64,000 bases of DNA. Origin: Microbacterium sp. zg-B96. GTDB taxonomy: Bacteria; Actinomycetota; Actinomycetes; Actinomycetales; Microbacteriaceae. Shown here in pieces: positions 22,575-34,477 of this stretch. The first letter of the stretch is position 1, and the number at the start of each line of letters is the position of its first letter. The DNA lies in the NCBI RefSeq assembly GCF_030246865.1, contig NZ_CP126738.1:1178001-1242000 (forward strand), in the 5' to 3' direction. The notes under the pieces are model-generated. The model was given only the letters and a program-made list of their open reading frames with translations. It was not told the origin of the DNA and did no database searches. Position numbers and translations under genes: made by a program.

Positions 22575-22649
22575 TAGAGTTGTCCTCGATAGGCGAACTC
22601 TCATTCGTCTCGCCCCGGCCGCGTGGTAACGGTCGGGGCTTTTTCTTTG
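22575..22649 (+). ncRNA. Possible small RNA antisense to the tetR 3' end
   Basis: A classic plus-strand intrinsic terminator (10-bp stem GCCCCGGCCG/CGGTCGGGGC with one G-U, 22612-22639, then T5CT3) has no annotated plus-strand gene before it. A -10-like TAGAGT at 22575-22580 would start a transcript of about 60 nt that ends here, overlapping the last codons of tetR in antisense. No convincing -35 box is visible, so this is only a candidate. Confidence 0.3.
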
Positions 22650-23302
22650 CCCGCTGCCGTCATCGTGGACACGACCATGTCGCCGATCAGGCGCCGGTGG
22701 GAGTCCTGCAGCTTCGGGTCCAGCATGTCGCGATCGAAGATGGCGGCGAAGGTGTGCCGGTTGGCGACGTGGAAGCACGCGTACGCACTGATGATCATGT
22801 GCACGTCGAGCGCGTCGACGTCATCGCGGAACGTGCCCTCGTGCACGCCGCGTTCGATCACCTCCTGCAGGAGCGTGATCGCGGTGACGTTCTCCCGCAG
22901 GATCGTGGGGGAGTGGCGCACGTTCTCGGCCCGGTGGATGTTCTCGATGCTCACCAGCTGGATGAACGCCTCGTGCGTGGTGTGATGCACGTAGGTCGCT
23001 TCCGCCAGCTTCCGAAGCCCCTCTTCGGGCGACAGCTCGTCGATCTGGATGCCGCGCTCCACGCGCCGGATCTGCGCGTACACGCGCTCCAGAACGGCCA
23101 GGTAGAGCCCCTCCTTCGATTCGAAGTAGTAGTAGAGCATGCGCTTGGTGGTGCGGGTGCGCGCGGCGATCTCGTCCACCCGCGCTCCGGCGTATCCGTG
23201 CGCGGCGAATTCGGCTGTCGCCACGTCGAGGATGTCCTCCCGCGCCCGCGCGGCGCGGTCCGTTTCCCCGGCGGTGCGCACCTCACGCACCTCATCGGTC
23301 AT
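22601..23302 (-). CDS. TetR-family transcriptional regulator
   Basis: 233 aa. The N-terminal HTH (about residues 20-66) contains ILDVATAEFAAHGYAGARVD, then EIAARTRTTKRMLYYYFESK, the standard TetR recognition helix and Tyr-Tyr-Phe anchor. The C-terminal ligand/dimer domain resembles the TetR_C group of RutR-like and aromatic-catabolism regulators. ATG overlaps the stop of the shikimate dehydrogenase-like gene (ATGA), so it is the last gene of the quiC operon and probably responds to a pathway intermediate. Confidence 0.9.
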   Translation of the reverse strand: MTDEVREVRTAGETDRAARAREDILDVATAEFAAHGYAGARVDEIAARTRTTKRMLYYYFESKEGLYLAVLERVYAQIRRVERGIQIDELSPEEGLRKLAEATYVHHTTHEAFIQLVSIENIHRAENVRHSPTILRENVTAITLLQEVIERGVHEGTFRDDVDALDVHMIISAYACFHVANRHTFAAIFDRDMLDPKLQDSHRRLIGDMVVSTMTAAGKEKAPTVTTRPGRDE

Positions 23303-24231
23303 CCCGCTCCTCCCGCGGCACCATCGGCGGCTTCACGGCGGATGAGGTCGGCGAAATGGCGCGCCATCCGCTCTCGGTCGGGCCGCTGCCCGGTGATGAT
23401 CTCGAGGCTGGCATACGCCTGACCGACAGCCATCCGTCCCCCGTCCAGCACGGCGTGCCCCCGCTGCGCCGCCTGACGCAGCAACTCCGTCTGCAGCGGA
23501 CGGTACACGACATCGGAGACCCAGGCACTAGGCCGGAGACGGTCCAGGTCGATGGGGACGCCGGGCATGTGGCGCATCCCCATCGGCGTGGCGTGCACGA
23601 CACCCGTGGCCAGCGCGATCGCCTCGCCGAGCACCTCCGGTGCGACAGTCGCGATCACCTGCGACGGGAAGTGTGCGCGCATGCGCTCCGCCAACTCCTC
23701 GGCGCGGGCCGCATCGACATCCGACAGCGCGAGGCGGGCGGTCCCGCAGGACAGGAGGGCGTACGCGGTCGCCGCGCCCGCTCCGCCGCACCCCACCTGC
23801 ACGACACGTTCGAAGGACGCGCCGGGCAGACCCGCCGCGAGCGCGTCGCGGTATCCCATCCAATCGGTGTTGTAGCCGACGAGACGCCCGTCCCGGAACA
23901 CCACAAGGTTGACGGCACCGAGCCGTTCGGCATCCGGATCCAACTCGTCGACGACCCCGAGCACCCGCTGTTTGCAGGGGTGCGTGATGTTCATCGCCGC
24001 GTAGCCGAGACCGCGCGCTTCGGCGAGGAGCTCGCCGACATCGTCGGCGCTCTTGCCGAGTTCAAGCAGATCGAGGATGCGGTACTCGTAGTCCAGCCCC
24101 AGTGCGGCTGCCTCCGCTTCGTGCATCGGCGGAGTGAGTGACGCCGTGATGCCTTCGCCGATCAGCCCGACCAGGTACTCGGCCCGCGGTGCGTGCGCGC
24201 GGGGCCTGATGGGTGAGGTGGGTTCGGTCAT
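23299..24231 (-). CDS. Quinate/shikimate dehydrogenase (AroE superfamily)
   Basis: 310 aa. Substrate pocket GITASLTPPMHEAE (Ser-x-Thr-Pro form typical of catabolic quinate/shikimate dehydrogenases), catalytic Lys in NITHPCKQ, and YNTDWMGY. The nucleotide loop is VGCGGAG, and the acidic SDVD after the next strand favours NAD+ over NADP+, as expected for a catabolic enzyme. It would oxidise shikimate to 3-dehydroshikimate and/or quinate to 3-dehydroquinate. Overlaps both neighbours by 4 nt; the next step enzyme (quiC-like) is in the same operon. Confidence 0.88.
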   Translation of the reverse strand: MTEPTSPIRPRAHAPRAEYLVGLIGEGITASLTPPMHEAEAAALGLDYEYRILDLLELGKSADDVGELLAEARGLGYAAMNITHPCKQRVLGVVDELDPDAERLGAVNLVVFRDGRLVGYNTDWMGYRDALAAGLPGASFERVVQVGCGGAGAATAYALLSCGTARLALSDVDAARAEELAERMRAHFPSQVIATVAPEVLGEAIALATGVVHATPMGMRHMPGVPIDLDRLRPSAWVSDVVYRPLQTELLRQAAQRGHAVLDGGRMAVGQAYASLEIITGQRPDRERMARHFADLIRREAADGAAGGAG

Positions 24232-24530
24232 GAGATGTCGGGAAGCTCGAAGTCGACGGTGGCGAGGGACACCTTGACGGGGGCGGACACTCGGAGCACC
24301 TCGGCATGCGCCGGATGCCGGTTATAGGCGGCGAGCCCTTCGAGGTCGTCGAAGTCCGCGACCAGCGCGAGGTCGTGCGAGAACTCGCCACCGAGGACAT
24401 CCGAGCCCACGGTCAGGGCCCGAAGCTCCGGAATCTGGGCCGGCAGCGCCCGCAGCAGGGACATCCAGTCTTCCCGCTGCTGCGCGGTGAAGGTGGGAAC
24501 GAATCGGAAGACGGCGACGTGGCGGATCAC
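24228..24530 (-). CDS. Dabb (stress-responsive A/B barrel) domain protein
   Basis: 100 aa from GTG 24530. MIRHVAVFRFVPTFTAQQRE and LVADFDDLEGLAAYNRHPAH are the two halves of the Dabb ferredoxin-like barrel. Members are small dimeric proteins, some of them cyclases or decarboxylases acting on aromatic/polyketide compounds, most of unknown function. Four-nt overlaps with the quiC-like gene and the dehydrogenase imply a role in the same pathway. Confidence 0.85.
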   Translation of the reverse strand: MIRHVAVFRFVPTFTAQQREDWMSLLRALPAQIPELRALTVGSDVLGGEFSHDLALVADFDDLEGLAAYNRHPAHAEVLRVSAPVKVSLATVDFELPDIS

Positions 24531-26371
24531 GCCGGCACCCCCTCCGGCGCGTCACGGCGCTGTTGATACTGGGCGGCCAGTCGCACCGGGGCGTTGAGCG
24601 CGCCGTAGCCGGCGTAGTCGTCTCGCCGTTCGACGACTTCGAGGAACACCGTCCCGATCGGATGGGTGTAGAAGTGCAGGAACTCGCCGGATTCGTCGCG
24701 GTCGTACATCACGTTCAGCTCCTGCAGGTCGGCGAGCAGCTCAGGGGCGATGTCGAACCGCGCCTGGATGTCGTCGTAGTAGTTGGTCGGGATGTCCAGT
24801 GGCCGGAAGCCGCGGTCGCGTGCCGCGCGCGCCAGCGCGAGCACATCGGATGCCGCGAACGCGATGTGCTGCGGCAGGATGGCGTCGGCGTCCGCGGCCG
24901 ACGGCACCAGGTTCAGCGCGACGCGCAGCACGCCGTCGGCACTGGCCAGAACCTGGCTGCGCACCAGCCCCACGGGGGCGGCGACTTCCATTGACGGCTG
25001 CGTATGCAGGTCGAGCACGGAGTGCAGGAACAGCACGCCCGCGTCGAAGTGCTGCCATGGCTGCGCGAGGTTGATGTGGTCGACGCATTCGATGTGGGCG
25101 GCATCGCCGCCGGCGGGCGGACCGAACTCGCGCACCCAGCCGGGTTCGCCGGCGCTCTCGGCGCCGAAGAAGACCTCCGAGCCATCCGGGGCGCGCACAC
25201 CCACCAGGGTCTCGTCGTCCGGGTCCTCCACGCGATACACCCGCGGTGCCAGCAGGTCGGTGGCCCGTCGCAGCGCCGCTTCGGGGTCCCGCACCGACAG
25301 CCCCATGCCGGCGACCGTCGGCTGATGCCGGTCGGTCTCGGGGCGTCCCAGCACCATGCGCGCGGCGCCCTGCGACCACAGCTCGACGCTCTTGGTGCGG
25401 TGCCGGCCGTGCGCTCGGAAGCCCAGCTGGGTCAGCAGGTCCCGCATCTGATCGATCGCGTCGGTGCGCAGCTCCACGTAGTTCACGTCGGAGGGCGGCG
25501 CGACGGCGGGCAGCGCCGCCGTGGACATGCGGGCGGCCCGGCCTCCCGATCCGCCGAGCCAGATGGCCGTCTCGTGCTCGAGCCAGCGCAGCGAGCGTCG
25601 GGCGTCGATCGCGGTGTCGCGGGGATCGGACTGGCGGAACGTGTCGTTGAAGATCTCCAGCGAGACCGGGCCGTCGTATCCGGTGCGAACCAGGTGGCCC
25701 ATGAACGCGCCGAGGGCGAAGCCGCCCTCGCCGGGGAACAACCGGTGATGACGACTCCACGACAGCACGTCCATCGACAGCAGCGGGGCATCGGCCATCT
25801 GCACGAAGAAGATCTTCTCGGCCGGGATCGTCTCGATCGCCTCGGGGTTGTGACCCTTCGACAGGATGTGGAAGCTGTCCAGGCACACCCCGATGCGCGG
25901 GTGGTCGGCCAGGCGTACGATGCGCGCGGCGACTTCGTAGCTGTCCACGAATCTCCCCCACGCGAGCGCCTCGTAGGCCACGCGGACCCCGTACCGTTCG
26001 GCCAGATCTCCGAGCTGGCGCAGCTGGGCGGCGGCCAGCTGCTCATCCCCGCTGCGTGCCGTCGCGACGTTGCTGCACAGCAGCATCGTGTCGATCCCCA
26101 GCCGGTTCATGAGTGTGAACTTTGCCTCGGCGCGCCGCAGATTCTGTTCCAGCAGGTCGGGGCCGACGCCTTCGAAGTCGCGGAACGGCTGGTAAAGGTC
26201 CAGAGTGAGCCCGAGCTCCTGCGCTCGTGCCCGGATCGCTTCGGGGGAGTGCGGGGAGGCGACCAGGTCCGGCTCGAAGATCTCCACGCCGTCGAAGCCC
26301 GCCTCCTTCGCGGCGACGAATTTCTCATCGAGCGTGCCGCTGAGGCAGACCGTGGCGATCGACGTGCGCAT
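24527..26371 (-). CDS. quiC: 3-dehydroshikimate dehydratase, QuiC-type fusion with an HPPD-like domain
   Basis: 614 aa from ATG 26371; the open frame extends further upstream but only through the divergent promoter region. The N-terminal half (1-about 280) is a xylose-isomerase-like TIM barrel (FDGVEIFEPDL, MLLCSNVAT, GVCLDSFHILSKG, FVQMADAPLL). The C-terminal half (from about 310) is a 4-hydroxyphenylpyruvate-dioxygenase-like VOC repeat, with CVDHINLAQPWQ and a terminal metal-ligand-style GTVFLEVVERRDDYAGYG. This two-domain arrangement is that of bacterial QuiC enzymes, which dehydrate 3-dehydroshikimate to protocatechuate using the barrel. First gene of a coupled four-gene operon. Confidence 0.9.
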   Translation of the reverse strand: MRTSIATVCLSGTLDEKFVAAKEAGFDGVEIFEPDLVASPHSPEAIRARAQELGLTLDLYQPFRDFEGVGPDLLEQNLRRAEAKFTLMNRLGIDTMLLCSNVATARSGDEQLAAAQLRQLGDLAERYGVRVAYEALAWGRFVDSYEVAARIVRLADHPRIGVCLDSFHILSKGHNPEAIETIPAEKIFFVQMADAPLLSMDVLSWSRHHRLFPGEGGFALGAFMGHLVRTGYDGPVSLEIFNDTFRQSDPRDTAIDARRSLRWLEHETAIWLGGSGGRAARMSTAALPAVAPPSDVNYVELRTDAIDQMRDLLTQLGFRAHGRHRTKSVELWSQGAARMVLGRPETDRHQPTVAGMGLSVRDPEAALRRATDLLAPRVYRVEDPDDETLVGVRAPDGSEVFFGAESAGEPGWVREFGPPAGGDAAHIECVDHINLAQPWQHFDAGVLFLHSVLDLHTQPSMEVAAPVGLVRSQVLASADGVLRVALNLVPSAADADAILPQHIAFAASDVLALARAARDRGFRPLDIPTNYYDDIQARFDIAPELLADLQELNVMYDRDESGEFLHFYTHPIGTVFLEVVERRDDYAGYGALNAPVRLAAQYQQRRDAPEGVPA

Positions 26372-26448
26372 GACACCTCCCGCGGCTACCGACGCTGGCA
26401 TCCGCTTTACTCTCAGATCAGCATTGCAGGAAAACGGACTAACTAGTA

Positions 26449-26458
26449 CGTTCGAACG
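26449..26458. promoter_or_regulatory. Palindrome in the quiC/iclR divergent region
   Basis: CGTTCGAACG is a perfect 10-bp palindrome, 78 nt before quiC and 49 nt before the first IclR gene. GTTCGxxC-type half sites occur in operators of PcaU/PobR-like IclR proteins, so this is a candidate operator; it is short enough to be chance. Confidence 0.4.
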
Positions 26459-26506
26459 CACCGGGGCAGTCGATGATGATTCAACCCCGCAAGAAGGGGA
26501 ACCTCG

Positions 26507-27265
26507 ATGGCGAGTCTCGCCGAATGGAACACACCGGCCGCGGCACCGGGCGGTTCTACCTCTGTCCTCGGTCGCATCATCTCGATCCTCGATGCCGTCA
26601 AGGAGTCGGGGGGATCGATTTCGATCACCGAGATCGCGGCGCACACGGCCATGCCCAAATCCACGGCATCGCGGCTCGTGGCTGAGCTGACCCGACAGCG
26701 CTACCTGCAGCGCACCGAGGACGGCGTGACCTTGGGGCTGCGCCTGTTCGAACTGGGAGCACGCGCGAACTTCCCCCGCCGGTTGATCGCGGCCGCGGCC
26801 CCGATCATCCAGGACCTGTGTGACGTCACCGGTGAGCGCGTCGGGCTGTGGGTGCACCAGGGGACCGACATGATCTCGCTCGCGGCGGTCGCAGGGAGGC
26901 TCCCGATGCTCCCTGCCCGCGCCGGCATGAGATCGCCCGCCCTGACAACGGCCAGCGGCAAGGCCTACCTCGCGTTCTGCGCGGACCAGGGCGTGGTCGA
27001 TCGGGTGAGTGCGCCGCTCGTCGACGATGCGGCTGATCAGTTCCGCAGTGAGCTGCGTGAAGTGCGCTCGGCGGTGGTGGCGGTGGACCGGGGCGTCGCC
27101 TATCCGGGCATCCTCGCCGTGGCGAGCCCCGTGCTGGCCGGCGATCGCACCGTGCTCGGTGCGATCTCCATCGCCGGCCCCAGCGGGGGAATGGACCCGG
27201 ACCGAGCCGCCCCGCTGGTGCGCGCTGCCGGCATCGCGTTGAGCCGTCGGCTCACGGCGGCGTAG
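26507..27265 (+). CDS. IclR-family transcriptional regulator 1
   Basis: 252 aa, RBS AAGAAGGGGA. The winged HTH (about 18-75) reads VLGRIISILDAVKESGG, ISITEIAAHTAMPKSTASRL and ends YLQRTEDGVTLGLRLFELG. The C-terminal GAF-like effector domain contains MRSPALTTASGKAYLAF and DRGVAYPGILAVASPV. IclR proteins commonly control protocatechuate, quinate and shikimate genes. Divergent from quiC. Codons 3-9 contain a copy of the motif found at both TRAP promoters. Confidence 0.92.
   Translation: MASLAEWNTPAAAPGGSTSVLGRIISILDAVKESGGSISITEIAAHTAMPKSTASRLVAELTRQRYLQRTEDGVTLGLRLFELGARANFPRRLIAAAAPIIQDLCDVTGERVGLWVHQGTDMISLAAVAGRLPMLPARAGMRSPALTTASGKAYLAFCADQGVVDRVSAPLVDDAADQFRSELREVRSAVVAVDRGVAYPGILAVASPVLAGDRTVLGAISIAGPSGGMDPDRAAPLVRAAGIALSRRLTAA
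26513..26531. promoter_or_regulatory. IclR-like operator motif, copy C (inside the iclR1 start)
   Basis: AGTCTCGCCGAATGGAACA differs from the TRAP-promoter copies at only a few positions. It lies about 150 nt upstream of quiC, a distance similar to copies A and B from their genes, and inside codons 3-9 of iclR1, so it could serve autoregulation. It lacks the conserved CGCAAAGC flank of A and B. Confidence 0.5.
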
Positions 27266-27271
27266 GCAGCC

Positions 27272-28039
27272 GTGCGCACAGCGGATTGGACGGATTCGGT
27301 CAGCGTGCTGGACCGCTTGACGGCAGTGTTCGAGGCGTTCACCGAAGACGACGAGGGGCTCGGGATCTCGGAGCTCGCGCGCCGCGCCAACCTGCCGAAG
27401 TCGACGGTGTCGCGGATCTCGGCCGAGCTCGTCGCGCAGCGGCTGCTGGATCGCGAGGGAGACAAGCTCTATCTGGGTGTCCGGCTGTTCGAACTCGGCC
27501 AGACCGTGGTTGAACCCCGCCGGTTGCGCCGAGCGGCGCTACCGGTGATGACCGACTTGCGCAACATGACGGGGTACACCGTCAATCTCGCCGTCCTCGA
27601 CGTCACCGATGTCGTCTGCATCGCTACCGTCCTCGGAGTCCCGGCGACGCCTCCAGTTCTGCGGGTCGGTGGGCGGCTACCGGCGCACGCGACCGCGTTG
27701 GGCAAGGCGATTCTCGCCTTCTCGCCGCCCGAGGCCGTGCACGCCCTCGCAAGCGACGGCGTGCTGGGCAGGCGGACACCTCAGACGGTGGGGGACCTGG
27801 ATGCACTGGTGCAAGAGCTGGGAGAGGCCAGGCGGCTGGGGACTGCGGTCGAGCGCGAGCAGTGCGTGGTCGGGCGCGCGTGTGTGGCCAGTCCGATCAT
27901 GGGTCGTGCGGGAGTCCCGCTGGCGGCGATCTCGGTCGCCGGTTCGGTCGACGACGTCGAACCCGAGCGGGTCGCTGCCGCCGTTCACGCGGCGGCGATG
28001 ACGTTGACCCGTCGCGTCGGGGCGCACCGCAACCCCTGA
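27272..28039 (+). CDS. IclR-family transcriptional regulator 2
   Basis: 255 aa from GTG 27272, 6 nt after the first IclR gene. HTH region: SVLDRLTAVFEAF, LGISELARRANLPKSTVSRI; effector domain: LPAHATALGKAILAF and EREQCVVGRACVASPI. It is clearly paralogous to its neighbour but well diverged (no long identical blocks), so an old duplication or acquisition. Same operon as regulator 1; the two may form heterodimers or separately control the quiC and TRAP operons. Confidence 0.92.
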   Translation: MRTADWTDSVSVLDRLTAVFEAFTEDDEGLGISELARRANLPKSTVSRISAELVAQRLLDREGDKLYLGVRLFELGQTVVEPRRLRRAALPVMTDLRNMTGYTVNLAVLDVTDVVCIATVLGVPATPPVLRVGGRLPAHATALGKAILAFSPPEAVHALASDGVLGRRTPQTVGDLDALVQELGEARRLGTAVEREQCVVGRACVASPIMGRAGVPLAAISVAGSVDDVEPERVAAAVHAAAMTLTRRVGAHRNP

Positions 28040-28108: not shown

Positions 28109-29164
28109 TCAGCCGGCCATCTCGCGAATGGCCTGGTACGCCTCGAGGTTCTCGCCCGAGAAGTAGCCGCCGAAGAACTCCTCCGCCTGGCTGATGAAGG
28201 CATCCATGTCGATGTCCTCCTTCTCGATCACGGTGAACGCGTCGTTCGCGCGGTACTCGTCGAGAATCTCCTCCGTTGCCTCGTCGACGCACGTGGCGTT
28301 CTCGGGGCGGATCTCGTGGATGGTCTCGTCCAGCAGGGTGGCCTGTTCTTCGCTCAGCTTGTCGTAGGTCATGTCGCTGACGAGGATCCAGTGGATGCCG
28401 ATGTTGTGGTCGTTGAGGACCGCGACGTTGAGCACCTCGTCGTAGCTGGAGGACCGGGTGGCCACGATCGGGTTCTCCTGGCCGACGGCGATTCCCTGCT
28501 GCAACGCGGTGTAGACCTCTTCCACTGCGACCGAGACCGGGTTCGTCACGCCCAGCGCCTCGGCGTTCGCGAGGAAGGCCGGCGAGTTCGGGAACCGGAT
28601 CGGCACGCCCGCGAGGTCATCGGGGCTGCGGACTTCGACGTCCTTGGTGGTGAAGGTGCGGTTGCCGAAGTACCAGCCGTCGACGATGCTCACGCCGGTG
28701 GCCTCCTGGAAGCCGGCGAACAGACCCTCCGACCCGTTGTCGATCCAGTCGAACGCGTGGTCGACATCGTCGAACGCGTAGGCGGCATCGACGACGCCGA
28801 TGGGCTCATACGTCGAGCTGAGCGCCGAGGCGCCCTGCAGGTCGATGTCGATGTCGCCGGCCTGGACGAGCGGGAACCGGTCCGCGTCGGGGCCGAGCTG
28901 GCTGGCGGGGTAGAGCTCCACGGTGAAGCCGATATCGGCATCCTCGAGGCGCTCCTTGAGCAGTTCGACACCGCAGTAGTAGTTCGGCGTCTGTTCGTTC
29001 TGGCTGGTGGCGACGGTGATGGTGACATCTTCGTTCGCCGAGGCCGCTTCGGTCTCCGTTTCTTCGGGTGTGCCCCCACCGGCGCAGCCGGTGGCGACGA
29101 GGGCTGCTGCTGCGAGCACCGACGCGGCAGCCATGCCCCGGCGTGTCGAGCGGACTGTGCTCAT
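28109..29164 (-). CDS. dctP: TRAP transporter solute-binding lipoprotein, DctP family
   Basis: 351 aa from ATG 29164. Signal peptide with lipobox VATGC at about residue 30, so lipid-anchored, as usual for Gram-positive TRAP binding proteins. DctP landmarks: FPLVQAGDIDIDLQGASALS, GVPIRFPNSPAFLANAEALG with the substrate-carboxylate Arg, and QQGIAVGQENPIV. It binds an organic acid (quinate or shikimate are the inferred ligands). Divergent from a Gfo/Idh gene and separated from the membrane subunits by 1.7 kb and two genes, but with a matching promoter. Confidence 0.92.
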   Translation of the reverse strand: MSTVRSTRRGMAAASVLAAAALVATGCAGGGTPEETETEAASANEDVTITVATSQNEQTPNYYCGVELLKERLEDADIGFTVELYPASQLGPDADRFPLVQAGDIDIDLQGASALSSTYEPIGVVDAAYAFDDVDHAFDWIDNGSEGLFAGFQEATGVSIVDGWYFGNRTFTTKDVEVRSPDDLAGVPIRFPNSPAFLANAEALGVTNPVSVAVEEVYTALQQGIAVGQENPIVATRSSSYDEVLNVAVLNDHNIGIHWILVSDMTYDKLSEEQATLLDETIHEIRPENATCVDEATEEILDEYRANDAFTVIEKEDIDMDAFISQAEEFFGGYFSGENLEAYQAIREMAG

Positions 29165-29249: not shown

Positions 29250-29301
29250 ACTCTGGCCGACTCCCTGCAGTTCGCAAAGCGATGTCCCGTCGAATGGAAC
29301 A
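29250..29301 (-). promoter_or_regulatory. dctP promoter with IclR-like operator, copy A
   Basis: Minus-strand -35 TTGCGA (29277-29272), 16-bp spacer, -10 CAGAGT (29255-29250). Immediately upstream is the imperfect palindrome TGTCCCGTCGAATGGAACA (29283-29301). The block CGCAAAGC, two bases, TGTCYCGYCGAATGGRAC is shared with the dctQ promoter at 32871-32899. The site centre is about -49 relative to the expected start, an activator position. Confidence 0.65.
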
Positions 29302-29372
29302 TCGCCGACAGCGGCCCGATCGTCGCATACGCTGACCGCGACCGGTGGCTGTGCCGAGACGGGGGAGTGCCC

Positions 29373-30458
29373 ATGAACAAGCTTGAGACCGCGCCCGTCC
29401 GCGTCGGAGTCATCGGCGTCGGGTTCATGGGCCGGCAGCATGTCGATTTCATTCGAGCGAATCCGGATGCCGAGCTGGCGGCGGTCGCCGATCCCGTCGC
29501 GGCGTCGGACGCGTTCGCGTGTCCGACGTACCCCGAGGCCGGCGCGATGCTGGAATCGGCCGACCTCGACGCCGTGATCATCGCCAACCCCAACGCGCTC
29601 CACGTCGACACCGCGATCGAGTGCCTCACCGCCGGCGTGGCAGTGCTGCTGGAGAAGCCGGTCGCTGTCGATTACGCGGAGGCACTGCGGCTGGTCGACG
29701 CGGTCGACCGGCTGCACGGGCGTCTGCTGGTCGGGCACCACCGGCGCCACCATCCGGCGGTCGCGCGTGCCCGCGCCGCGATCGGCGCAGGGGAGATCGG
29801 TCCCCTCGTCGCCGTGAGCGGGCTATGGTCCGCGCGCAAGGAGGACGCCTACTTCACCGACACCCCGTGGCACCGCCAACGCGGCGCCGGGGTGATGCTC
29901 ATCAATCTCGTGCACGACCTCGATCTGCTGCGTCACCTGTGCGGCGAGGTCACCGAGGTCCACGCGATGGTGAGTTCGCACACCCGCAACCTCGACGTCG
30001 AAGACACCGCGTCGGTGAACCTGCGGTTCGACAACGGCGCCGTCGGCAGCTTCCTCGCGTCCGATGCGGGTGTCTCACCGTGGGGCTGGGATCAGTCCAC
30101 CGAGGACACCCTGGAGTTCCCGTTCCTGCCGGACGGCTCTGCGTACCAGTTCGTCGGCACGCGGGGTGCGCTGTCGGTGCCGAACCTCGCGAAGTACTCA
30201 TACGACCCGTCGGTGTCCGCCGACTGGCATTCGCCGCTGTCGCGCTCGTACCTGCAGGTGCCGCCGGCCGGGTCTTTCCGCCGTCAGCTCGCGCACTTCG
30301 TCGAGGTCGTGCGGGGGAACGCGGCCCCTCTCGTTTCGGCGGCGGATGCCGCTGGCACGCTGGCGCTCGTCGAGGCGGCGGCGCTGTCGGCACAGCGGGG
30401 CGAGACGGTGGACGTCGCGCGCTTCCGCGTCAGCCGGTCAGGCGATCTGCCGCTCTGA
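29373..30458 (+). CDS. Gfo/Idh/MocA-family oxidoreductase
   Basis: 361 aa from ATG 29373 (GGGGGAG five nt upstream; GTG 29367 is an alternative). N-terminal Rossmann motif VGVIGVGFMGRQH, the EKPVA motif (LLEKPVAVDY) with the catalytic Lys, and the C-terminal sheet domain with NLRFDNGAVGSFLASDAG. Such enzymes oxidise polyols such as inositol or sugars with NAD(P)+; here it might oxidise quinate or a related cyclitol. Divergent from dctP. Its last 29 nt overlap the 3' end of the aroQ-like gene on the other strand. Confidence 0.9.
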   Translation: MNKLETAPVRVGVIGVGFMGRQHVDFIRANPDAELAAVADPVAASDAFACPTYPEAGAMLESADLDAVIIANPNALHVDTAIECLTAGVAVLLEKPVAVDYAEALRLVDAVDRLHGRLLVGHHRRHHPAVARARAAIGAGEIGPLVAVSGLWSARKEDAYFTDTPWHRQRGAGVMLINLVHDLDLLRHLCGEVTEVHAMVSSHTRNLDVEDTASVNLRFDNGAVGSFLASDAGVSPWGWDQSTEDTLEFPFLPDGSAYQFVGTRGALSVPNLAKYSYDPSVSADWHSPLSRSYLQVPPAGSFRRQLAHFVEVVRGNAAPLVSAADAAGTLALVEAAALSAQRGETVDVARFRVSRSGDLPL

Positions 30459-30864
30459 TCGCCAGCTCGTACCCGAACACCCCTGCGCCGGCGATCACTG
30501 TGGTCGCGACGGTCGATACCAGCGAGTTCTGGTGCGCGGTGTCCCGGGCGTGGATGTTCGTGATGTGGATCTCCACGATCGGGGTGCGGAGCATCCGCAG
30601 GGCGTCGAGCACCGGGATCGACCGGAAGCTCAACCCTGCAGGGTTGATCACCACCGTGGCCCGCTCGTGGTAGGCATCCTGCAGCCAGTCGACCATCTGG
30701 TACTCGGCGTTGGTCTGCGCGAAGAAGAGGTCGAATCCCAGCTCGTCCGCGAGGCGGGTGCAGTCGTTGCGCACGTCGTCGAGGGTCGCGCTCCCGTACA
30801 GCTCGGGTTCGCGCTGGCCGAGCATGTTGAGGTTCGGGCCGTTCAGGACGAAGAGTTTCCTCAT
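30430..30864 (-). CDS. aroQ: Type II 3-dehydroquinate dehydratase-like protein
   Basis: 144 aa, normal for type II DHQases. Landmarks LNGPNLNMLGQREPELYG (with the lid Arg and catalytic Tyr), NPAG and the catalytic His in VEIHITN are present. Two substrate-binding segments deviate: the usual THTS becomes SFRS and the usual RExFRxHS becomes RDTAHQNS. It therefore may be a catabolic or divergent paralogue with altered substrate. It is the last gene of the TRAP membrane operon (28 nt after dctM), which fits use of imported quinate via dehydroquinate. Confidence 0.85.
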   Translation of the reverse strand: MRKLFVLNGPNLNMLGQREPELYGSATLDDVRNDCTRLADELGFDLFFAQTNAEYQMVDWLQDAYHERATVVINPAGLSFRSIPVLDALRMLRTPIVEIHITNIHARDTAHQNSLVSTVATTVIAGAGVFGYELAIRAADRLTG

Positions 30865-30892
30865 CGACGAGTCCTTTCAGGGAGACGGCGGG

Positions 30893-32173
30893 TCACATCA
30901 GCCCCAGCCACGTGGGCACGATCGTGACGATCGCAGGGAACAGCGTGAGCAGCAGCAGCACGACCCCGAGCGGAATCAGGAAGGGGAGGATGCCGCGGAA
31001 GAGCTCGCCCATGGGCCTGCGCGTGATGGAACCGACGACGAACAGCACAGCCCCCACCGGTGGTGTCAGCGACCCGATCATGAGGTTGAGGATCATGATG
31101 ACGCCGAGGTGGACCGGGTCGATCCCGAAGGACGCGGCGATGGGCATGAGGATCGGGACGAGCACGAGGATCACCGGGGGTGCCTCGAGGAAGATGCCGA
31201 GGAGGATCAGCAGCACGTTCAGCAGCAGCAGGAAGACCACAGGGTTGTCGGTCAGGTTGCTGAGCCATTCGCCCAGGTTGCGTGAGACCTGCTCGCGGGC
31301 CAGGACCTGTCCCATGAGGTTGGAGGCGCCGAGGATCAGCAGGATGCCGCCGGAGATGATGACGGTCTCTTTCGACGCCCGCCAGAACACCTTGAAGGTG
31401 AGCGTGCGGTAGAACACTCCGAGCACCAGCATGTAGGCCGCGGCGATCCCGGCGCTTTCGGTGGGGGTGAACCAGCCGCTGAAGATGCCGCCCAGGATGA
31501 TCACCGGCAGCATCATCGGCCCGAGCACTCTGACGACGGCCTTGCCCAGCATGGCACCGTCGAACGACCGGCTGACGGCTACCGCCGGGTGCAGCTTGAC
31601 CCAGATGAAGACGTAGATGGCAAGTCCCAGCGCCATCAGCATCGCCGGCAGGATGGAGCCGGCGAACAGCGCACCGGTGGAGATCGTGGCGGTGGCGGCG
31701 AAGAGCACGGCGGGGATGCTCGGCGGCATGACCGTGCTCATGAGCGAGCCGGATGCCGTCAGCCCCGCGGAGAACCCGTAGGGGTAGCCGGCCTTGAGCA
31801 TCTGCGGGATCTGCACCTTGCTGGTGGAGGCGGCGTCGGCGAGTGCGGAACCACTGATCCACGAGAAGCCGATCGCGGTGGCGAGGTTGACGTAGGCGAG
31901 GTTGCCGGGAAGCCGGGGGAGCAGCGCCCGGGCGAAGTCGTAGAGCCGGGTCGCGATGCCGAGGTGGTTTGCGACCGTCCCGACGAAGATGAACAGCGGC
32001 ACGGCCAGCAGGGGGAAGCTGTTGATGCCGTTCACGATCGACGACATCGCGTAACCGGGGGACAGCCCCTGCGTGTAGAAGTACAGCATGCTCGCGGCGA
32101 TCATCGCGAAGGCGACGGGCACGCGCAGCAGCAGGAAGACGACGAGAACGACGATGTACAGCCAGAGTTCCAA
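30893..32173 (-). CDS. dctM: TRAP transporter large permease, DctM family
   Basis: 426 aa, about twelve hydrophobic segments, with the DctM signatures VPLFIFVGTVANHLGIATRLYDF near residues 57-79 and PPSIPAVLFAATATISTGALFAGSILPA. It is the ion-coupled translocation subunit. Three nt after dctQ. Works with the lipoprotein at 28109. Confidence 0.94.
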   Translation of the reverse strand: MELWLYIVVLVVFLLLRVPVAFAMIAASMLYFYTQGLSPGYAMSSIVNGINSFPLLAVPLFIFVGTVANHLGIATRLYDFARALLPRLPGNLAYVNLATAIGFSWISGSALADAASTSKVQIPQMLKAGYPYGFSAGLTASGSLMSTVMPPSIPAVLFAATATISTGALFAGSILPAMLMALGLAIYVFIWVKLHPAVAVSRSFDGAMLGKAVVRVLGPMMLPVIILGGIFSGWFTPTESAGIAAAYMLVLGVFYRTLTFKVFWRASKETVIISGGILLILGASNLMGQVLAREQVSRNLGEWLSNLTDNPVVFLLLLNVLLILLGIFLEAPPVILVLVPILMPIAASFGIDPVHLGVIMILNLMIGSLTPPVGAVLFVVGSITRRPMGELFRGILPFLIPLGVVLLLLTLFPAIVTIVPTWLGLM

Positions 32174-32176
32174 GGA

Positions 32177-32761
32177 TCAGCCTTCCATCTCGGAGATGTT
32201 GAGCTGTCGCTCTGGGCGGTGGGCGTAGGGGATCTTCATGATCGAGTGGAATGCCGCCGACAGGAACCCGATGAGGGCGAAGACGTACAGCATGCCCAGC
32301 GGGATGTGCATCGCAGCGCTGGCGCGCGCCCACTCGATCTCGATCTTCACGAACGCCTCATAGGCGAGGGCGAGACTGGTGGCGGCCATGATGACGGCCG
32401 ACACGATGCGCAGCGCGGTGAAGAGCTTCTTGCCGGCGAGCATCTGGTCGAACACCTCGATCACGATGTGACCGTTGCGCCCGACGAGGTAGCCGGTCGT
32501 GATGAACGTCATCGCGACCATGGCCAGCAGCGCCAGTTCACCGGCGCCGACCCAGCCGACCGCCGGGAAGTAGCGCCCCAGCACCTGGTACATCACACCG
32601 AAGAAGAGCAGGGCGAACAGTGTCACACCGATCGTGACCTCGACCGTGGAGAGGATCCGCATGAACCGAGGGTCCGGCGGCACCCCCTGATTCAGCTTCG
32701 GGATCGTGTAATAGGTGTTGGTGTTCCCGTAGATCGACTCTTCGGGCTCGTTCTGGGTCAT
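32177..32761 (-). CDS. dctQ: TRAP transporter small permease, DctQ family
   Basis: 194 aa with four hydrophobic segments (about 45-65, 75-95, 110-135, 150-175) and a 40-residue cytoplasmic N-terminus. Typical DctQ arrangement next to DctM. First gene of dctQ-dctM-aroQ; promoter and operator lie 90-140 nt upstream. Confidence 0.9.
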   Translation of the reverse strand: MTQNEPEESIYGNTNTYYTIPKLNQGVPPDPRFMRILSTVEVTIGVTLFALLFFGVMYQVLGRYFPAVGWVGAGELALLAMVAMTFITTGYLVGRNGHIVIEVFDQMLAGKKLFTALRIVSAVIMAATSLALAYEAFVKIEIEWARASAAMHIPLGMLYVFALIGFLSAAFHSIMKIPYAHRPERQLNISEMEG

Positions 32762-32846
32762 TGCGTCACCGACGCGGTGTCAGGGAGCATTGCCAACCTC
32801 TCTGTTGGGGCGGTGGCGACGCTCACGCAGACGCGGCCACAACAGC

Positions 32847-32899
32847 ACTCTGGATCCTTCGGTGTCGGCGCGCAAAGCCCTGTCTCGCCGAATGGGACG
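32847..32899 (-). promoter_or_regulatory. dctQ promoter with IclR-like operator, copy B
   Basis: Minus-strand -35 TTGCGC (32875-32870), 17-bp spacer, -10 CAGAGT (32852-32847), preceded by TGTCTCGCCGAATGGGACG (32881-32899). Organisation and distance to the gene (motif centre about 130 nt upstream) match copy A almost exactly. The remaining part of the 227-nt gap to the divergent gene holds nothing else I recognise. Confidence 0.65.
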
Positions 32900-32988: not shown

Positions 32989-33576
32989 ATGAGCCGCATG
33001 ACACGCGAAACTGGCACCGCCCTCCTGGTGATCGACGCCCAGGAGTCCTTCCGGCAGCGGCCCGACGACTGGGCGGCGACGGCCAATCCGCTGCTACTGG
33101 CGAACATCGCACGGCTTGTCGACCATGCCCGCGCGGCGGGCGACATCGTCGCGTGGGTCACCCACTCCGAACCCGGCACGGGCGGGGTGTTCGACCCCAG
33201 CTCGGGATTCGTCCGGGTTTTCGCCGAACTCGACCCCCGCGACGACGAGATCCAGGTCACCAAGACGACCGTCAATGCCTTCACCTCGACGGACCTGCAG
33301 CACCAGCTCACGGCGCGGGGTGTGCGGCGGGTGGTGATCTGCGGCATCCGCACCGAGCAGTGCTGCGAGACCACGGCGCGGGTGGCCGGCGACCTCGGAT
33401 TCGACGTGGAGTTCGTCACGGATGCCACGACGACCTCCGCGATCGGGGCCGGGCCGGGCTACGGCGCGGTGTCCGGTGAGGAACTGATGCGCCGCACCGA
33501 GAGCGTCCTGGGAGCGCGGGGGTTCGCGACCATCGTGACGACGGCCGAGCGGACGGCACGCTCGGTCGCGGCCTGA
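32989..33576 (+). CDS. Isochorismatase-family cysteine hydrolase
   Basis: 195 aa from ATG 32989 (ATG 32998 possible). Catalytic triad residues are visible: Asp in LLVIDAQESF, Lys in VTKTTVNAF and Cys in CGIRTEQCCETT. The Cys identifies it as an amidase/nicotinamidase-like hydrolase rather than true isochorismatase, which lacks it. The promoter region is shared with dctQ, so it may be induced by the same substrate; its place in the pathway is unclear. Confidence 0.88.
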   Translation: MSRMTRETGTALLVIDAQESFRQRPDDWAATANPLLLANIARLVDHARAAGDIVAWVTHSEPGTGGVFDPSSGFVRVFAELDPRDDEIQVTKTTVNAFTSTDLQHQLTARGVRRVVICGIRTEQCCETTARVAGDLGFDVEFVTDATTTSAIGAGPGYGAVSGEELMRRTESVLGARGFATIVTTAERTARSVAA

Positions 33577-33655: not shown

Positions 33656-34477
33656 ATGGGCATCGATCGTCCGACCATCGAGGAATACCTCGCCAACGTG
33701 GGCGCGGCCGGACACCGGATCTGCGAGATCGACGCCAGCGAAGCGGGTGCGGGCAACATCTCCCTCTGCCTGGACGAGCTGCCGCGCGTGCGGCAGATCT
33801 TTCCGATCTCGGAGCGGATCGAGCTGCCCTTGCCGGCACCCGCGCTGGCTGGTCGGACGCTCCTGGTCACCGGATCAGGCCGGCGCCTGCGGCAGATCGC
33901 CGAGAACCCGCTCGCGGCCATCGCCGCGGTGATCGTGGAGCCCGGCGGTACCCACGCCGAGATGCTCACGTCCCCGCAGCGTCAGTTCGCGGCCCTCACC
34001 AGTGAGTTCAACTCGCACCTGGCCGTGCACGATGACCAGGTCGGCCGGCGCAACCTGCCCTTCCACGCGGTCGTGCACGCGCAGCCGCCGCACCTGACCT
34101 ACCTCAGCCACATCCCGCTGTACCGGGACACCGAGGCGATGAACCGCCGCATCCTGCGGTGGGAGCCCGAGTCGATCGTCGCCCTTCCGGACGGCATCGG
34201 CGTGCTGGAGTTCATGGTCCCGGGGTCGGCAGAGCTGATGGATGCCAATGTCCGGGGGCTGCGCGACTTCGAGATCGTGCTGTGGAGCAAGCACGGCGTG
34301 ATGGCCCGCTCGGACCTGTCGGTCACGCGCGCGGTCGACCGGGTCGAGTACGCCGAGACCGGCGCCAAGTACGAGTACATGAACCTCACCGGCGGAGGTC
34401 AGGCAGAAGGACTCAGCACAGCAGAGATCCGCGCGGTGGCGGACGCGTTCGGTGTGGCATCCCGCTGGATCTCCTAG
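33656..34477 (+). CDS. Class II aldolase, rhamnulose-1-phosphate aldolase-like
   Basis: 273 aa, RBS GAGGAG. GAGNISLCLDE near residues 31-41, the metal-binding pattern HAVVHAQPPH (His-x3-His) and a third His in WSKHGVMA, with the E of the N-terminal VTGSG region, correspond to zinc-dependent class II aldolases/RhaD. The likely reaction is retro-aldol cleavage of a phosphorylated ketose; the natural substrate is not certain because no rhamnose genes are nearby. Confidence 0.85.
   Translation: MGIDRPTIEEYLANVGAAGHRICEIDASEAGAGNISLCLDELPRVRQIFPISERIELPLPAPALAGRTLLVTGSGRRLRQIAENPLAAIAAVIVEPGGTHAEMLTSPQRQFAALTSEFNSHLAVHDDQVGRRNLPFHAVVHAQPPHLTYLSHIPLYRDTEAMNRRILRWEPESIVALPDGIGVLEFMVPGSAELMDANVRGLRDFEIVLWSKHGVMARSDLSVTRAVDRVEYAETGAKYEYMNLTGGGQAEGLSTAEIRAVADAFGVASRWIS

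Follow-up and report, generated by a model that had tools for sequence, protein, structure and literature searches.

How are the genes for quinate and shikimate use switched on together when they are spread over separate transcription units? The question is raised by a 64,000-nucleotide stretch of the genome of Microbacterium sp. zg-B96 (NCBI RefSeq assembly GCF_030246865.1, contig NZ_CP126738.1, positions 1,178,001 to 1,242,000 of the forward strand; below, the window), in which the minus-strand units quiC-aroE-tetR, dctP and dctQ-dctM-aroQ lie on both sides of a plus-strand tandem of two IclR-type regulator genes, iclR1 and iclR2 (pair A). A preliminary description of this DNA had proposed that one or both IclR proteins activate a three-operon quinate/shikimate regulon. 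That proposal is supported here by three exact copies of a 17-bp site, by 26 further loci and by a layout like that of IclR group-1 operators (as given in the available text of PMC8222616), and we consider it likely, with a probability of about 0.75, that one or both products of iclR1-iclR2 activate the regulon through these three sites.

One site at three promoters

Only three places in the 3,409,839-bp genome match the 17-bp core GTYYCGNCGAATGGRAC exactly, and all of them lie in the window (at 26514, 29284 and 32882); this is far above chance, base composition predicting 0.016. Matches with one mismatch are absent from the rest of the genome (0.72 expected from base composition), and the 12 matches with two mismatches represent background, 14.7 being expected. 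When the window was shuffled, three matches at up to three mismatches were reached in 1 of 100 shuffles. The three copies, here called I, P and Q, precede quiC, dctP and dctQ, with their cores 143, 120 and 121 bp from the respective start codons. A dehydrogenase, a dehydroquinate dehydratase, a dehydroshikimate dehydratase and a transporter all lie behind this one type of operator.

P and Q belong to a block that the preliminary description had reported as repeated at 29273-29300 and 32871-32898, and which is present as such: CGCAAAGC (29273-29280 and 32871-32878) is followed, after two bases, by TGTCCCGTCGAATGGAAC (29283-29300) or TGTCTCGCCGAATGGGAC (32881-32898). Its near-equal distance to dctP and dctQ had been described correctly, as had the boxes TTGCGN and CAGAGT at 16-17 bp from each other, which read on the minus strand as TTGCGA-16-CAGAGT on the dctP side and TTGCGC-17-CAGAGT on the dctQ side. 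The third copy announced near quiC also exists, at 26513-26530 and with one mismatch to the 18-base pattern given earlier, but it lies inside the iclR1 coding sequence rather than in a spacer and is without the CGCAAAGC box, having a TTGAAT hexamer at about equal distance. Where two TRAP operons had been postulated, dctP stands alone and dctQ is followed by dctM and aroQ, and the locus therefore holds one TRAP transporter in two transcription units.

The earlier concern that the motif might be common at unrelated loci was checked across 98 genomes. Matches to the core at up to one mismatch number 85, in 53 genomes, with 72.6 expected and 9 in a backwards control; being so close to expectation, lone inexact matches carry little weight. 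Exact matches number 12 as against 1.6 expected, of which seven fall within the pair-A clusters of G000, G049 and G045; the other five are taken up below.

Conservation in relatives

Relatives were sought with IclR1. Among 295 genomes of the genus, 17 have a match at E <= 1e-40, own genome included; among 398 genomes of the family, 8 have one at E <= 1e-50, two of which (the own genome and G045) were already in the genus count. A contig scan yielded loci from Microbacterium, Agromyces and Occultella. The 27 pair-A loci mapped are the window, L106-L121, L122, L123, L127, L129, L130 and L142-L146, and L147 has only a second type of tandem, pair B, described below. L131 (a 32% relative) was left out, as were L124, L125, L126 and L128, taken as duplicates of G228, G168, G140 and G112.

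The search of the genome and of its relatives that had been suggested at the outset bore the motif out, with conservation in the 26 further pair-A loci. Wherever upstream DNA is available, the operator stands 5′ of dctP (26 of 26 loci; L112 ends too early) and 5′ of dctQ (21 of 21), and it occupies codons 3-8 of iclR1 in all 23 loci in which quiC or aroE is divergent from that gene. The strict form GTYYCGNCGARTGGRAC accounts for 64 of these 70 sites (dctP 24, dctQ 17, in-gene 23), while the remaining six, in L121, L130, L145 and L146, depart from it at one or two positions or are caught only by a looser IclR pattern. Five family loci with pair A that were mapped after the motif had been defined have it as well, L145 and L146 in partly degenerate form.

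Gene order differs among the loci. In L116, L118, L120 and L130 there is no quiC between aroE and iclR1, and the site is kept upstream of aroE. In L119 quiC is unmatched and tetR-aroE stand behind aroQ-dctM-dctQ, with one operator, now outside iclR1, for the whole run. In L121, L145 and L146, finally, tetR, aroE and quiC are unmatched in the available DNA and the in-gene site is absent, with the dctP and dctQ sites kept. Because of these rearrangements, we conclude that the site tracks the transporter and catabolic operons, not the iclR1 peptide.

Promoter geometry and proposed regulation

Toward the operon, a -10-like hexamer begins 28-29 bp past the operator at 66 of the 70 sites. For P it is NARAGT, at offset 28 in all 26 loci; for Q it is NARAGT, at offset 28-29 in 19 of 21, and for I it is TTGAAT, also at 28-29, in 21 of 23. 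This predicts a position near -49 for the operator centre, with about 6 bp between the operator and the poor -35 box that follows it, and the arrangement is that of an activator-type promoter, with the operator upstream of a weak -35 and at near-fixed spacing to the -10. From this spacing, the single orientation and the poor -35 boxes we infer an activator that touches RNA polymerase.

In the circuit that we propose, an IclR-family activator from the iclR1-iclR2 tandem, consisting of one or both proteins, would bind all three operators, its inducer probably being quinate, shikimate or an early intermediate. Sitting near -49, some 6 bp ahead of the weak -35 and always in the same orientation, it would recruit RNA polymerase and switch on the three minus-strand promoters of quiC-aroE-tetR, dctP and dctQ-dctM-aroQ. 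The single TRAP transporter would import quinate and shikimate, which would be converted by way of dehydroquinate and dehydroshikimate into protocatechuate. Since the quiC operator is at the same time codons 3-8 of iclR1, the regulator bound at I should also hinder transcription of iclR1, a predicted first feedback; TetR, probably bound to a palindrome in the iclR1 promoter, would provide a second. The IclR pair is the best candidate for the binder, because the sites persist, partly degenerate, in three loci without a tetR match in the available DNA (L121, L145, L146) and because the paralogous pair B goes with a site that is related to this one and yet distinct.

Two tandem IclR pairs

Both proteins of pair A carry PF09339 (N-terminal helix-turn-helix) and PF01614 (C-terminal effector domain) above gathering scores. 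Pair B occurs in 17 of the 22 loci first mapped, near the cluster in 16 and about 10 kb off in L120; the pair-B loci are L106-L117, L120, L122, L123, L127, L129, L143 and L147 (19 loci). The genome of the window has no second iclR1 match. Identity to IclR1 is 51-55% for the first genes of pair B, as against 43-44% for two iclR2 genes, and the second genes of pair B share 41-58% identity with IclR2. In a tree of 74 rows (4 of 78, of 180 residues or fewer, having been removed, and L142-L147 lying outside it), made by a quick method and under a warning that long branches meet in it, each of the four groups forms a one-sided cluster of its own, and A1 is joined with B1 and A2 with B2. This topology suggests that both genes of the pair were duplicated together. 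Labels A and B set by an identity threshold misname the gene of L117 at 5079, the iclR2 of L146 (49%) and that of L147, which were counted by their neighbours; the L117 row of the tree was relabelled from iclR2_A to iclR2_B by position.

In all 27 pair-A loci, and likewise in all 19 pair-B loci mapped, the gene after iclR1 is iclR2-like, some iclR2 aligning only partly. Against obligate pairing, of the 22 genomes of the genus with an iclR2 match (E <= 1e-40), five (37-48% identity) have no iclR1 match at this limit; the proteins matched in these five probably belong elsewhere in the IclR family. A related site of its own goes with pair B, about 84-109 bp from where its first gene begins in the alignment; 18 of the 19 loci have it (L127 has none, and that of L143 is degenerate). 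Of these sites, 17 fit the general pattern, and in 12 of them positions 6 and 12 are symmetric by a hand count. In the pair-A operator all 70 sites have A at position 6 and 67 have C at its mirror, position 12, so the asymmetry is conserved and the orientation toward the operon is never flipped.

As a variant of the proposed circuit, we think it quite possible, at somewhat less than even odds, that a homodimer or homotetramer of just one IclR protein occupies the 17-bp operators and that its partner has another target or inducer. IclR proteins are described as dimers or tetramers in the available text of PMC8222616, the two recognition helices are nearly alike, and the five genomes with an iclR2 match (probably another IclR protein) and no iclR1 match point the same way; the unfailing presence of an iclR2-like gene behind iclR1 and the apparent duplication of the pair as a unit speak against it. 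More tentatively, and with some doubt, IclR1 and IclR2 may form an obligate heteromer on the asymmetric operator in its one orientation, the N-terminus of IclR1 being shaped by DNA recognition and pair B acting on its own, mostly symmetric operator. Such a complex would read the operator with its GTYCCA half distal and its GTYYCG half proximal to the promoter. A heteromer in pair A would be compatible with the data, the signs of it being indirect: co-occurrence, the apparent pair duplication and the asymmetric operator. An attempt to assign the half-sites to IclR1 or IclR2 from the recognition helix gave no answer, since the specificity positions of PMC8222616 (mapped by eye) hardly differ among the four paralogue groups.

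Between the dctP operator and the oxidoreductase gene gfo, 17 of 18 relatives with gfo have a B-like TTCCAYTSANYGG, 23-37 bp past the operator, by a pattern chosen after the fact; a stricter pattern finds it in 5 of 19 loci only. It is absent from 29301-29372 of the window, though gfo is present there; the window is also without pair B.

Activation or repression

Could the pair instead be a repressor, bound to all three sites while inducer is absent and keeping RNA polymerase out until quinate or shikimate releases it? Site I does lie downstream of the putative iclR1 promoter, where repression would work. At P, Q and I, by contrast, the operator lies entirely upstream of the -35, at near-invariant distance, in one orientation and next to poor -35 boxes, and an operator just upstream of a poor -35 box is the usual layout for activation. 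We therefore regard repression of the three units as unlikely.

Several points nevertheless weigh against activation by the IclR pair. Many IclR proteins are repressors, according to the available parts of PMC8222616 and PMC9582017. With recognition helices nearly alike, either IclR1 or IclR2 may be the binder. The A/T spacer of group-1 operators is not found here, the spacer being TCG in most sites. The Q sites of L144 and L145 are without any -10-like hexamer at the shared offset, and the I sites of L142 and L144 have TTAGAT in place of TTGAAT. The sites of the relatives were sought by pattern (up to two mismatches), so their per-base conservation is somewhat inflated, though gene context and spacing are not. 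Five single exact core matches lie beyond the mapped pair-A loci (G011, G017, G043, G073, G079), in genomes without a pair-A match or outside the search for that pair. These five are perhaps chance matches and perhaps sites of other IclR proteins.

A palindrome in the iclR1 promoter

The palindrome between the two boxes of the putative iclR1 promoter (Table 1), GGACTAACTAGTAC in the window, is the only match in the genome when up to two mismatches are allowed. Of the 24 loci with tetR, 23 have GTACTAACTAGTAC, the form of most relatives, with no more than one mismatch, and the last (L144) has it with two; none of the three pair-A loci without a tetR match has it. It is the probable operator of the TetR encoded in the quiC operon and, because it tracks tetR, TetR feedback on the iclR genes is the natural reading. 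In L119 two tetR-like matches adjoin each other.

TetR might also be thought to bind the three 17-bp sites themselves, as tetR is encoded within a regulated operon and TetR operators are palindromic too; we reject this as very improbable, since L121, L145 and L146 have pair A with P and Q sites (partly degenerate) and no tetR match, and tetR tracks a different palindrome.

The operator inside iclR1

In 20 aligned loci, out of the 23 with the in-gene site, the ATG of iclR1 comes after a purine-rich, Shine-Dalgarno-like stretch and opens a protein beginning MxSLAEWN or a close form. Ser3 is AGT in 20 of 20 loci, a codon used for 38 of the 386 serines of these genes, and Glu6 is GAA in 18 of 20, as against 51 of 202 glutamates (site included in both counts); Ala5 is GCC and Asn8 is AAC in all 20. 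Residue 4 is L, P or F, and its codons CTC, CCC and TTC all satisfy the YY of the operator; residues 2 and 10-15 are variable. Mean codon diversity is 0.045 at the four testable site codons (3, 5, 6 and 8 of the six, the others being Trp or not invariant) versus 0.44 at other near-invariant residues, and random codon draws matched the conservation of the site codons in 3 of 100,000. Judged by codon choice, the DNA at iclR1 codons 3-8 is conserved beyond the requirements of the protein. Well conserved as the peptide SLAEWN is, we reject as scarcely credible that copy I is its mere by-product without regulatory role, in view of the AGT and GAA codons, of a residue 4 that follows the operator while residues 2 and 10-15 vary, of the -10-like hexamer at the shared offset, and of the absence of the copy where quiC/aroE are not divergent from iclR1 (L119, L121, L145, L146).

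Genes of the locus

The features are collected in Table 1. The exact function of quiC is assigned by similarity, because its NCBIfam score is under the cut-off. The gene for the step after QuiC, the protocatechuate 3,4-dioxygenase beta gene pcaH, is elsewhere in the genome, at 3170162 of the contig. Divergent from dctQ are an isochorismatase-like gene (32989-33576) and a class II aldolase-like gene (33656-34477), neither of which has a match in the 27 other mapped loci, many of which end soon after dctQ; both genes are probably outside the regulon.

Table 1. Coordinates of genes and predicted regulatory features in the window
Feature	Position	Strand	Remarks
tetR, regulator of the quiC operon	22601..23302	-	PF00440, PF17938
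aroE-like shikimate/quinate dehydrogenase	23299..24231	-	NF009201 above cut-off; PF08501
quiC-like 3-dehydroshikimate dehydratase	24527..26371	-	NF042435 552 bits, below its 1200-bit cut-off
Putative iclR1 promoter, TTGCAG-17-TACGTT	26424..26452	+	TTGC in 20/20 and TACGTT in 19/20 aligned loci
Palindrome GGACTAACTAGTAC (most relatives GTACTAACTAGTAC)	26436..26449	+	between -35 and -10 of iclR1; probable TetR operator
-10-like TTGAAT of the quiC promoter	26479..26484	-	offset conservation in relatives
iclR1 (pair A, first)	26507..27265	+	PF01614, PF09339; ATG at 26507
Operator I, GTTCCATTCGGCGAGAC	26514..26530	-	codons 3-8 of iclR1; predicted to serve quiC-aroE-tetR
iclR2 (pair A, second)	27272..28039	+	PF01614, PF09339
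dctP, TRAP solute-binding protein	28109..29164	-	profile match; stands alone
-10-like CAGAGT of dctP	29250..29255	-	NARAGT conservation
Poor -35-like TTGCGA of dctP	29272..29277	-	sequence; inside CGCTTTGCG box
Operator P, GTTCCATTCGACGGGAC	29284..29300	-	upstream of dctP
gfo, Gfo/Idh/MocA oxidoreductase	29373-30458	+	between dctP and dctQ units
aroQ, type II 3-dehydroquinate dehydratase	30430..30864	-	PF01220, 161.6 bits; last gene of dctQ operon
dctM, TRAP large permease	30893..32173	-	profile match
dctQ, TRAP small permease	32177..32761	-	profile match
-10-like CAGAGT of dctQ	32847..32852	-	NARAGT conservation
Operator Q, GTCCCATTCGGCGAGAC	32882..32898	-	upstream of dctQ-dctM-aroQ

Comparison with known systems

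The kind of system described here is already known; this member of it, the in-gene operator and the paired regulators are new as far as the literature listings go. Closest are the IclR group-1 operators (GKTYCRYW3-4RYGRAMC; Suvorova and Gelfand 2021, PMC8222616), and quinate/shikimate metabolism and DctPQM are among the contents of IclR regulogs in the available text of that paper, the main text of which does not contain 'Microbacter'. Our operator resembles them as a 17-bp inverted repeat of 7+3+7 with GTTCCAT / RCGRGAC halves, reading GTTCCAT and ACGGGAC on either side of a 3-bp TCG; where group 1 has A, at base five of the right half-site, our operator (position 15) has G in 62 of 70 sites. 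Unlike what is available on group 1, the halves here differ in a conserved way and two adjacent IclR genes go with the operator.

In activating a pathway that funnels into protocatechuate, the pair would be like the IclR activators PcaU/PobR and HbaR1/VanR1, the latter from aromatic catabolism in Rhodococcus (PMC9582017 and PMC8222616, available parts). PcaU/PobR, as far as described there, have three-box sites and a single regulator, unlike the pair of regulators here, and inspection by eye found no conserved third IclR box as in PcaU beside our sites. QsuR of Corynebacterium glutamicum (PMC11258901, available text) offers a further parallel, actinobacterial activation of quinate/shikimate utilisation genes from a region divergent from the regulator gene, although QsuR is of the LysR family and responds to chorismate. 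Among the literature matches listed, none describes an IclR heteromer or this regulon, supplements being outside the search, and the heterodimers of PMC10470539 are, in its available text, enzymes and not IclR proteins.

For Microbacterium and relatives we predict a complete quinate/shikimate regulon, with its operators, its promoters and a TetR feedback site. The locus also provides a clear bacterial example of a coding sequence that contains an operator, with the amino acid following the degeneracy of the latter, and the occurrence of tandem IclR pairs twice makes the question of IclR heteromers directly testable. For an otherwise known kind of circuit, an operator within a gene and paired regulators are unusual.

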